Positions 7,373 to 62,340 of a stretch of DNA of 64,000 nucleotides are shown here, in pieces (position 1 is the first letter of the stretch; each line of letters starts with the position of its first letter). The notes below the pieces were generated by a model that did not search any database, was not told where the DNA came from, and saw only the letters and a program-made list of their open reading frames with translations. The translations under genes and the position numbers were made by a program. Origin of the DNA: Desulfobotulus mexicanus (lineage in GTDB: Bacteria > Desulfobacterota > Desulfobacteria > Desulfobacterales > ASO4-4). The DNA lies in NCBI RefSeq assembly GCF_006175995.1, contig NZ_VDMB01000008.1, positions 1 to 64,000 of the forward strand, in the 5' to 3' direction.

Positions 7373-7392
7373 GTAAATGCTCAGCACACTTT
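7373..7392 (+). repeat. Possible solo end of the MITE-like repeat
   Basis: Twenty bases between the DUF3141 gene and nadK match the terminal inverted repeat of the MITE-like elements seen at 13533, 60993 and 62162 at 16 of 20 positions, sharing the core CTCAGCACA and the outer GTAA. No second end or internal module is recognisable here. It may be a decayed remnant or a chance match. Confidence 0.35.
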
Positions 7393-12791: not shown

Positions 12792-13482
12792 ATCCATCAA
12801 CACCTATTATGGCAACATCAGGGCTTTAAAGAATATCTCCATCGAAATTGCCGAAGGGGAGATTGTGGCCCTAATTGGTGCCAACGGTGCCGGTAAAACC
12901 ACCACCCTGAAATCCATATCCGGTATCACCCCGCCCAGAAACGGCCGCATCAGCTTCATGGGTAAAGACATACAGAATGCACCTCCTGAAAAAATTGTGG
13001 CCATGGGGCTATGCCATGTCCCTGAAGGCCGCCATATCTTTCCTCAGCTTTCTGTTATGGAAAACCTTGAGATGGGAGCATTTCTCCGCAGGGACAAAGC
13101 AGAGATTAAAAAAGATCTGGACTATATCATGTCCCTTTTTCCCATACTGGCCCAGCGCCGCAAACAGGCAGGCGGCACCCTCTCCGGCGGTGAACAGCAA
13201 ATGCTGGCCATATCCCGAGCCCTCATGGGCCGACCCAAGCTCCTTCTTCTGGACGAACCCTCTCTGGGCCTTGCCCCCCTCATCATCCGGCAGATTTTTG
13301 AGATTATTGAACAAATCAACCGCAGCGGTACAACGATCTTCCTAATTGAGCAGAATGCCAACCTCGCCCTGAAAAGCTCCCACAGGGGTTATGTCATGGA
13401 AAACGGTGAAATTACCCTTACGGATACAGCAGACAACCTCCTGCGCAATGATGAAGTCAAAAGAGCCTATCTGGGGATTTAA
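12778..13482 (+). CDS. livF: Branched-chain amino-acid ABC transporter ATPase LivF
   Basis: A 234-aa ABC ATPase, second of the LivGF pair. Walker A is GANGAGKTT at about residues 34-42, the signature is LSGGEQQMLAISRALM, and Walker B is LLLLDEPSLGLAP. The characteristic LivF motif VPEGRHIFPQLSVMENL is present. Two in-frame ATGs lie at 12772 and 12778; the second is chosen because GGAGAGG is about six bases upstream of it, whereas it abuts the first. The gene ends the liv operon and is followed by a long non-coding stretch. Confidence 0.95.
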   Translation: MLTIESINTYYGNIRALKNISIEIAEGEIVALIGANGAGKTTTLKSISGITPPRNGRISFMGKDIQNAPPEKIVAMGLCHVPEGRHIFPQLSVMENLEMGAFLRRDKAEIKKDLDYIMSLFPILAQRRKQAGGTLSGGEQQMLAISRALMGRPKLLLLDEPSLGLAPLIIRQIFEIIEQINRSGTTIFLIEQNANLALKSSHRGYVMENGEITLTDTADNLLRNDEVKRAYLGI

Positions 13483-13532
13483 AGGGATAAAAAATAAGAG
13501 CCTGAAATTTAAAAGAATAACCTGCCAGCATT

Positions 13533-13858
13533 GTAATTATTCAGCACATTTTTTTATGCAAAATTATGCATTAATTTCAAAGCACTGGTTCCAGCAAAAG
13601 ACAATCGGGCTGTTTGTGAGTGACATTGCAATCGTTTCGGATCAGAGCTTTGCAGGCCTGTGCGAAAGAAGCGGCAAACTGTCAGAGCCGCCAAAAGGCA
13701 GCGTGCTTAAGCCTGCCATGGTAATCAAAAAGCTTATCCTGCCTGTGGCGGGGAGTTTTTGCCGCTTCCGCACAGGATAAGAAGCTTCCGAACAAGATTG
13801 CGTCACGAACAAATGGTCCGGTTGTCTATGCACCTAATTAATTGTGCTGAGCAGCACC
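13533..13858. repeat. MITE-like element, copy A (about 326 bp)
   Basis: It starts GTAATTATTCAGCACA and ends with the inverted core TGTGCTGA at 13843-13850, with the outermost eight bases diverged. The left third shares GGTTCCAGCAAAAGACAATC with copy B (60993), and the middle shares GTGACATTGCAATCGTTT and ATCAGAGCTTTGCAGGCC with copy C (62162). Its interior adds a large imperfect inverted repeat (13657-13680 against 13754-13776) and smaller nested stems. No protein is recognisable in it. The layout fits a non-autonomous element moved by a transposase encoded elsewhere. Confidence 0.75.
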
Positions 13859-14054
13859 CCACGCTGTGTTACGGCGTTTTGTCATAAAGTAACTTTTGAA
13901 GTTACTCAGAAGTTACCCAGCATTTACCATATTATAAGTACATCCCCTTCCTTTAACAGAAGAGCCCTTAGGATCCGGATTTATTTCCACAAAGACCTGG
14001 AATATTGACCTTCTTTCAAGAGATAAGATTGTGAGTTTTGCCGATCAAACAAAA

Positions 14055-14212: not shown

Positions 14213-14602
14213 TCAGGCTTCTGCCGCTTCTGCAGCAGCAACAGGTGCCGGATCAACAAACTCAATCAGGGCCATGGGTGCAGCATCACCTGCCCGGTAA
14301 CCCAACTTGATAATACGGGTATAGCCACCCGCACGATGGCCAAAGCGATCCTGTGCTTCGGCAAAGAGCTGATGAACTACACTTTTTTCCCGAATAACGG
14401 AAAGAGCCTGACGTCTTGCGTGCAGATCCCCCCGTTTAGCCAGGGTTACCATCTTGTCCACCCAACGACGCAATTCCTTGGCCTTCACATCCGTTGTACG
14501 AATACGACCGTGCTTGATCATGGACGTAACCATGTTACGGAACATGGCATCCCGATGGCTGGATGTGCGATTGAGTTTTACGCCTGCTTTTCTGTGTCGC
14601 AT
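14213..14602 (-). CDS. rplQ: 50S ribosomal protein L17
   Basis: A 129-aa L17, last gene of the alpha operon (rpsM-rpsK-rpsD-rpoA-rplQ). The family start [20 protein letters not shown] is complete, and the core carries [20 protein letters not shown]. The tail [11 protein letters not shown] is an Ala-rich extension typical of proteobacterial L17s. It follows rpoA by 11 bases and is closed by a strong terminator. Confidence 0.97.
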
Positions 14603-60992: not shown

Positions 60993-61099
60993 GTAATTGT
61001 TCAGCACATTTTTTCATGCAAGATTTTGCATTAATTGCAAAACATTGGTTCCAGCAAAAGACAATCGGGCTATTAAGGAAAATTATGCTGAATAATTAC
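60993..61099. repeat. MITE-like element, copy B (107 bp)
   Basis: It starts GTAATTGTTCAGCACA and ends with the matching inverted sequence TATGCTGAATAATTAC; 18 of about 21 terminal bases pair. The inside shares GGTTCCAGCAAAAGACAATC with copy A. It fills the gap between the gpsA stop (3 bases away) and the radC start, and contains no gene. It is the shortest and cleanest copy. Confidence 0.8.
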
Positions 61100-62161: not shown

Positions 62162-62340
62162 GTAAGTATTCAGCACAGTTTATTCCGAACTGCCAATGCT
62201 GTAATTGCAGCAGCTTCGTACTGCTACAAGGCTCCGTGGCTATTTGCAAGTGACATTGCAATCGTTTGGGATCAGAGCTTTGCAGGCCTGTGCATCTGCC
62301 TTGCAGGTATGGTACCTGGAAAACTGTACTGAACTGTTAC
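62162..62340. repeat. MITE-like element, copy C (179 bp)
   Basis: It starts GTAAGTATTCAGCACAGTTT and ends AAACTGTACTGAACTGTTAC; 16 of 20 terminal bases pair as inverted repeats. The interior right half shares GTGACATTGCAATCGTTT and ATCAGAGCTTTGCAGGCC with copy A, while the left half is different from both A and B. It lies in the gap between gpsA and gyrA and has no coding content. Confidence 0.78.

Follow-up and report, generated by a model that had tools for sequence, protein, structure and literature searches.

IS66-type ends and a conserved hairpin core in a family of small mobile elements of Desulfobotulus

The palindromic repeats found in a 64-kb stretch of the Desulfobotulus mexicanus genome (hereafter the window) belong to a family of non-autonomous MITEs, that is, to a small non-coding transposon that is numerous in this genus of sulfate-reducing bacteria. 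Taken together, the results are best read as MITEs with IS66-type ends, the core of which is selected as a folded single strand that aids the spread of the elements. We give this overall reading a probability of about 0.6, and not more, because the aid to spreading is the weakest link of the explanation. An IS66 transposase would act in trans on the terminal GTAAC(T/C)nTTCAGC, leading to insertion with 8-bp target duplications; the core would be selected as a folded single strand, either RNA or ssDNA, within propagating element lineages, and it would help the element to spread or be tolerated, rather than serve the host at each insertion site.

In a preliminary description of the window, three elements (A, B and C) with a common 16-base end had been interpreted as a family of palindromic MITE-like repeats with shuffled internal modules. 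The end GTAANTATTCAGCACA has five matches in the window with at most two mismatches, against 0.10 expected, and none of 100 shuffled sequences reached five; four of the five are part of A, B or C (Table 1). The sharing of one end is far beyond chance, with the reservation that the left end of B is GTAATTGTTCAGCACA, one mismatch off. The fifth match, GTAAATGCTCAGCACA at 7373-7388, is an isolated end-like sequence around which no element was recognised by visual inspection. The right end of A, which had been placed at 13858, had to be moved 58 bp outward to GTTACTCAGAAGTTAC, and it is this true outer end that yields the exact target duplication. A is placed between an ORF ending at 13482 (forward strand) and an ORF ending at 14213 (reverse strand), and the ORFs across it are fortuitous extensions of 129 aa at most. 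The flanks of B (GTCCAGAC/TCTCAGAC) are identical at 5/8 positions and those of C (GTTTTTCT/TTTTTTCT) at 7/8, that is, both are imperfect duplications. A partial transposase gene at 1-843 (PF13701, DDE_Tnp_1_4), cut by the start of the window, is unrelated to the MITE.

Table 1. Features of the three elements in the window, and ends of three hairpin carriers outside Desulfobotulus found in the strict search
Feature	Position	Strand	Description
Element A	13533..13916	+	full-length L1-core-R1 with extended right end; ends and exact 8-bp duplication
A, left target duplication	13525..13532	.	CCAGCATT, exact 8-bp copy of the right one
A, right target duplication	13917..13924	.	CCAGCATT, exact 8-bp copy of the left one
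A, structured hairpin core	13616..13806	+	covariance model R1, 211.1 bits, E 8.7e-59 (R1 built from 11 sequences, A's own core, as L013, absent and close relatives present)
A, 58-bp right extension	13859..13916	+	read from the outer end GTAACTTCTGAGTAACTTC...; same extension in other copies
Element B	60993..61099	+	107-bp L1 arm-only derivative without core
Element C	62162..62340	+	179-bp L2R2 element, left half of the core kept
Carrier L292			ends GTAACTTCTCAATAAC; duplication CGTTAGCT
Carrier L282			ends CCAGGGCAATCACAAATAAC; duplication CTTTGCGC
Carrier L300			ends AGACCTTTGAAAAATAATG; duplication TATAACG

The genome-wide search for the 16-base end, which had been proposed as a check, revealed 31 exact matches in the D. 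mexicanus genome (19 forward, 12 reverse; none for the reversed control), and the variant end GTAACTGTTCAGCACA has 139 matches with up to two mismatches (control, 2). The end is abundant, and the case that had been named as fatal to the proposal, the existence of three copies alone, therefore does not apply. The core query gave 148 first-look candidates in the same genome, and all of the 40 that were scored match at 96-99% identity. An exact 25-mer of the core retrieved 107 genome stretches, which were all from Desulfobotulus alkaliphilus ASO4-4 among the matches listed (the scan may leave out the D. mexicanus genome), and the element is also present in a third Desulfobotulus genome, G002. Both ends of the elements carry the terminal inverted repeat GTAA(T/C)T(A/G)TTCAGCACA. 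Exact 8-bp duplications flank 17 of 64 paired-end candidates in D. mexicanus and 53 of 136 in D. alkaliphilus, compared with 0.38 and 0.57, respectively, when the flanks were reassigned, and other duplication lengths from 5 to 12 gave counts of 0-4. Elements are 107-520 bp long, typically 345-353 bp at full length, and have no coding capacity for a transposase of their own; one of 172 oriented elements lies within a long ORF. The number of copies, their palindromic structure and the 8-bp duplications of the target thus bear out the idea of a palindromic MITE family. Blastn yielded no match to the element in phages, and the loop pattern had no match in viral contigs. Carriage on plasmids was considered and rejected, as two Pseudoalteromonas records match solely the pyrimidine tract found 3' of the GC-rich copies of the hairpin. 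A literature search, which missed most subscription papers, found no earlier description of these elements, and the accessible portions of PMC9769881 and PMC3189936 contain no MITE assigned to IS66.

The apparent shuffling of modules mainly reflects two arm subfamilies around one common core, plus internal deletions. The arms that enclose this core are of two unrelated sequence types: of 64 elements in D. mexicanus, 40 are L2R2, 15 are L1R1, one is L1R2 and eight are others (four of these untyped on both sides and probably false), and the 136 elements of D. alkaliphilus comprise 102 L2R2, 16 L1R1, one L2R1 and 17 others. Both arms could be typed in 175 elements, only two of which are mixed; one of these, L170, may consist of mispaired ends. 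Several subfamilies had been proposed to be mobilised by one transposase; L1R1, L2R2 and the copies with extended ends indeed have the same kind of end, and a single mobilising enzyme would fit them. The shared internal modules are present as claimed, but what A and C have in common extends beyond 18 bases to the entire left half of the core. Recombination or replication slippage had been offered as the source of the mosaic, and free shuffling of modules is not seen in the arm counts; slippage is consistent with C, a decay product of the L2R2 type. Its deletion runs across the palindrome between 9-bp direct repeats: the sequence GGCCTGTGC occurs at both borders, in the core on one side and in the right arm on the other, and the existence of a 496-bp counterpart in D. 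alkaliphilus fits slippage across the palindrome. B is likewise a decay product, an arm-only derivative of the L1 type.

Shorter copies in general are internal deletions, and longer ones contain a nested palindrome, TCCGGCACTCAAG...CTTGAGTGCCGGA. This second palindrome of about 66 bp occupies two symmetrical positions of the core in L001, L006, L015, L225 and other copies, has no match within the window, and reaches about 310 bp, with further palindromes inside, in the D. alkaliphilus counterpart of C. One MITE copy on contig 1 of D. mexicanus is interrupted by an IS630-like transposase gene (DDE_3; L063:636-1673). The outer extension that starts with GTAACTTCTGAGTAACTTC occurs in A and in further copies. 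An extended end together with a duplication (at most one mismatch) was found for 1/5 matches in D. mexicanus loci and for 4/11 in D. alkaliphilus loci, counts in which some matches are two registers of a single copy. The duplication at the extended end is exact in A and L089 and in L191, L202 and L203 of D. alkaliphilus, and has one mismatch in L195; for the remaining extended matches of the same comparison no duplication was found.

A comparison of sites between the two species was possible for 22 of 60 D. mexicanus elements, both flanks of which could be matched in D. alkaliphilus stretches. It should be noted that this sample is tilted towards occupied sites, because the stretches had been picked for containing the core. 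Eighteen of the sites are occupied in D. alkaliphilus, three are empty-like, and L004 was assigned to neither group. The site of L036 is an exact empty site in D. alkaliphilus (flank gap -8), an insertion polymorphism between the species. Among the 18 occupied sites, 13 harbour the same subfamily and five a different one (B, L012, L059, L029 and L068). The site of B is occupied in D. alkaliphilus by an extended L2R2 element of 485 bp, and the imperfect duplication is the same in both species, which argues for one insertion event with contents that now differ. At L012 and L059 the target agrees between the species on the assessable side (the right flank of L059 is unaligned near the element), and the boundaries of L029 and L068 lie a few bases apart, so that independent insertions are possible. 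Subfamily replacement at a fixed site is thus clear at B, probable at L012 and L059 and ambiguous at L029 and L068. The left target of L059, an L1R1 element, shows a near-doubling (TTTTGATTTTTGATT) at a site where D. alkaliphilus has another element, and this could be the trace of an excision and re-insertion. C and the copies L003 and L022, which are 177-179 bp long, have counterparts of 472-496 bp in D. alkaliphilus.

Ends that start with GTAA and an 8-bp target duplication are the hallmark of IS66 elements, and the MITE has both. The end sequence and the length of the duplication point to an enzyme of the IS66 type, which very probably moves the family. The partner IS for which the preliminary description had suggested a search is missing from the genome itself: the D. 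mexicanus assembly, which is 98% complete, contains no match to the IS66 transposase (PF03050), and no partner IS was recognised in two other Desulfobotulus genomes, with no PF03050 match in G002 and two fragments of one gene, without such ends, in G001. The IS66-like gene of D. alkaliphilus (L256) was also rejected as a partner, having no matching ends. PF03050 matches are present in 59 of 146 relatives, and four of 30 fetched IS66 loci (L245, L247, L249 and L250), in genomes of the same order, combine matching ends with exact 8-bp duplications (ATAAAAAC, GGATTTTT, AAAACGCC and AAACAAGT, respectively). Their ends read GTAAC(C/T)A(T/C)TCAGC, no more than one or two bases away from GTAACTATTCAGCA, and L249 and L250 encode a 471-aa transposase with PF03050 and DUF6444. 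Only the terminal 13 bases or so match between the MITE and these elements, and no internal similarity is visible, for which reason an origin of the MITE as a deletion derivative of an IS66 was rejected. Three pairs of ends on contig 1, with spacings of 1.4-2.3 kb, were considered as autonomous copies and dismissed: two of them are separate MITEs that flank ordinary genes, and the third is an IS630-like (DDE_3) insertion within a MITE.

The whole element is one long imperfect palindrome, with a core hairpin of about 140-190 nt. Single-stranded DNA of A is predicted to form one long hairpin (-83.2 kcal/mol, z -7.5); the fold of positions 13533-13858 gives -135.3 kcal/mol (z -9.2), and one element folded as RNA gives -175.8 kcal/mol (z -11.9). 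When four copies of G079, which belongs to another family, are included, 11 of 51 pairs have changed on both sides; one outer helix (columns 6-10) is not preserved in that genome. In an alignment of 39 matches, which is fitted to the covariance model and takes in two weaker reverse-strand matches, 85.9% of the cells are paired (56.7 after shuffling, at most 46.8 after sliding), double-changed cells number 532 (160 and at most 126, respectively) and covariation is 0.606 (0.175 and at most 0.116). An unfitted check, a sequence-only MAFFT alignment of 20 hits analysed with RNAalifold, returned a 35-pair hairpin with compensatory changes in 27 pairs, and the stems thus have covariation support in fitted and unfitted tests alike. 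Unpaired columns are better conserved than paired ones (1.01 versus 1.50 bits), and the internal loops, including AAACTGTYTGAG opposite CGAGTTTTT, do not change between Desulfobotulus, other families and genomes beyond the order. The excess of G-U over A-C (138 versus 72) points to one particular strand, with the caveat that the fitting may favour G-U; these counts and the conservation values are model-fitted and comprise 69 of 78 rows, nine reverse-strand duplicates having been dropped. As judged from these comparisons of sequences, structural selection probably acts on the core.

The hairpin is not confined to the genus. With model R1 and an E-value of at most 0.01, the core was detected in 30 of 291 genomes of the order, three of them Desulfobotulus, which represent 15 families and 19 of 138 genera; these E-values are rough, with 25 of the 30 genomes below 1e-4 and about three false hits expected at 0.01 over 291. 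The refined model R2 (E-value of at most 0.001) detected it in 20 of 297 genomes of the phylum, 15 outside the order and, within it, D. mexicanus and four others. Copy numbers outside Desulfobotulus are to be read as "at least". No Rfam family matched any of 28 loci at the gathering score; among the sub-threshold matches, two microRNA models overlap hairpins (E 0.1 and 0.97, L271 and L277), and the other three lie off the hairpins.

The core is also far less variable than the arms. Arm and core-strand diversities are 0.136 versus 0.039 for L2R2 (17 copies chosen by their ends) and 0.162 versus 0.062 for L1R1 (10 copies) in D. mexicanus, and 0.118 versus 0.036 (56 copies) and 0.195 versus 0.034 (13 copies) for the same subfamilies in D. 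alkaliphilus. The core is thus 2.6-5.7 times less variable, a difference reached in 0, 1, 0 and 0 of 10000 column permutations in the four sets. D. alkaliphilus loci had been chosen by an exact core 25-mer and some D. mexicanus loci by core similarity, which makes these sets biased; core diversity was computed without the 25-mer, and the end-chosen D. mexicanus L2R2 set, like the L1 set, carries no bias for the core. Even the terminal 16 bases, at 0.10-0.20, exceed the core in variability, which is partly due to differences between the two ends of one element. For the ten copies of the same type that were sufficiently full, out of the 22 comparable sites, arm identity is 0.944 between orthologues and 0.886 between paralogues and is higher in 10/10 cases, and core identity is 0.961 in both comparisons and higher in 6/10. 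Differences between orthologues amount to 59/1052 in arms and 46/1191 in cores, a weak contrast (p 0.057). Resident cores thus drift almost like the arms, and a constraint on inserted copies is unsupported. We read this as a core that was constant in source elements amplified before the species split and has drifted after insertion; alternatively, exchange between source copies possibly keeps the cores alike.

The latter mechanism is part of a wider alternative, according to which these are ordinary MITEs with cores that are alike through recent descent from few sources or homogenising recombination, and the hairpin is a by-product of the palindrome. This would accommodate the intermingling of the cores of both subfamilies and of two species, orthologous cores that are no closer than paralogous ones, and the different subfamilies at one site in two species (B, probably L012 and L059). 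It is nevertheless unlikely, as the arms of the very same copies differ several times more than the core strands, and as hairpins from beyond the genus have stems altered on both sides but unaltered loops, a pattern that descent or conversion within one genome would not give. Base pairs of a by-product palindrome would persist for a time, but the same one-sided bulges would not. Selection on the folded strand could, in turn, act for the benefit of the host, the core being a cis element such as a terminator, an mRNA stabiliser or a processing site, and host cis roles have been proposed for REP and ERIC repeats. The intergenic placement, with the nearest ORF at a median distance of about 50 bp, the strong hairpin and two terminator-like patterns in and beside A, against 0.6 in shuffled sequences, are in line with this possibility; no sigma-70-like promoter was found at A. 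However, the elements show no preferred orientation to the flanking ORFs (43 of 96 codirectional cases, p 0.36), convergent and divergent contexts number 30 and 29, and the cores of inserted copies drift at nearly the rate of their arms. The absence of an orientation bias disfavours a cis role on neighbouring transcripts, and we regard a host-serving element as quite improbable.

Even less probable is a hairpin that is a mobile unit with an enzyme of its own, a Y1/RAYT transposase or an integron-like recombinase, and has been enclosed in MITEs secondarily. Y1/RAYT transposases act on ssDNA hairpins, and integron attC sites have paired core sites of the form GTTRRRY/RYYYAAC. The presence of the same hairpin within elements of unrelated ends and the four copies in alternating orientation at one locus (L271) would be expected for such a unit, but G101 and G103 contain the hairpin and have no Y1_Tnp match (G103 is 70% complete), and there is no demonstrated insertion of the hairpin without MITE ends. 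Since 254 of the 291 order genomes have a Y1_Tnp match, its co-occurrence with the hairpin says little. Among the functions considered, help in the spreading of the element takes the largest share, and we propose it tentatively.

After exclusion of 13 of 78 matches (two Desulfobotulus rows, nine reverse-strand duplicates and two partial ones), 65 hairpins outside Desulfobotulus were available for a search for ends. A loose, uncontrolled search detected inverted ends with a direct repeat in 11 of the 65 and none in 54, and a strict search detected inverted ends with a duplication in three of 59 hairpins, against a control mean of 0.05 (Table 1). L106 of G079 has GTAACTATTCAGCAGG and TTTAAAAT in the loose search and fell outside the strict set owing to a short flank. 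At 13 loci, distributed over 11 genomes, visual inspection showed an ATG-NN-TC-like outer part on either side and, inward of it, GTAAAAAG or GCAAAAAG. Some hairpins thus clearly sit in elements with different ends, but the carrier of most hairpins from other genera is putative. At L271:875-1974, four hairpins in alternating orientation lie within 1.1 kb in a BIME-like arrangement. GC-rich hairpins (L269, L272, L274, L281, L297-L299, L302, L315 and others) have a pyrimidine tract after them, together with a short hairpin, TTTCTTTTGGTTNNTTTTCTTTGG..CAAAGAAAA, an arrangement that might allow triplex formation; its motif differs from that of the triplex repeats in the accessible text of PMC4666352. 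A more speculative extension of the preferred reading is that MITEs with differing ends across Desulfobacterota share, as their conserved core, a hitherto undescribed hairpin family characterised by one-sided bulges and the loop AAACTGTYTGAG/CGAGTTTTT; this hairpin would constitute a portable folded RNA or ssDNA "spreading module" exchanged among unrelated families of transposons.

The common view is that a MITE depends on its ends alone. An interior that is better conserved than the ends, with a fold that is kept across families and in elements with differing ends, suggests that the interior of a MITE can matter, and the role of MITE interiors becomes directly testable. The hairpin is, in addition, a candidate for cataloguing as a new structured RNA or ssDNA family, and the occupied, empty and swapped orthologous sites in two Desulfobotulus species provide material for the study of repeat turnover.

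Among known systems, the IS66 family of the single-transposase type (DDE_Tnp_IS66, PF03050), which we presume to be akin to the ISBst12 group, has similar ends and 8-bp duplications in L245, L247, L249 and L250, but the MITE has no internal homology to it past the ends, and IS66 is absent from the D. mexicanus genome. REP, REPIN and BIME palindromes, as far as the accessible parts of PMC3733652 and PMC3116915 describe them, are likewise intergenic imperfect palindromes, sometimes in alternating orientation, as at L271; however, REPs are given there as 20-40 bp long (PMC3733652), whereas the hairpin of the present family is about 140-190 nt long and is located inside elements with 8-bp duplications. 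The multicopy nucleotide sequences of Geobacter are, according to the description in the accessible part of PMC2700814, also multicopy intergenic palindromic families of related bacteria. The closest general likeness is to the MITEs of bacterial insertion sequences, which are equally short and non-coding, have inverted ends, target duplications and high copy numbers and include many internal deletions; the present family differs from them in that its interior is better conserved than its ends and arms, and in that the same structure recurs in elements with other ends.
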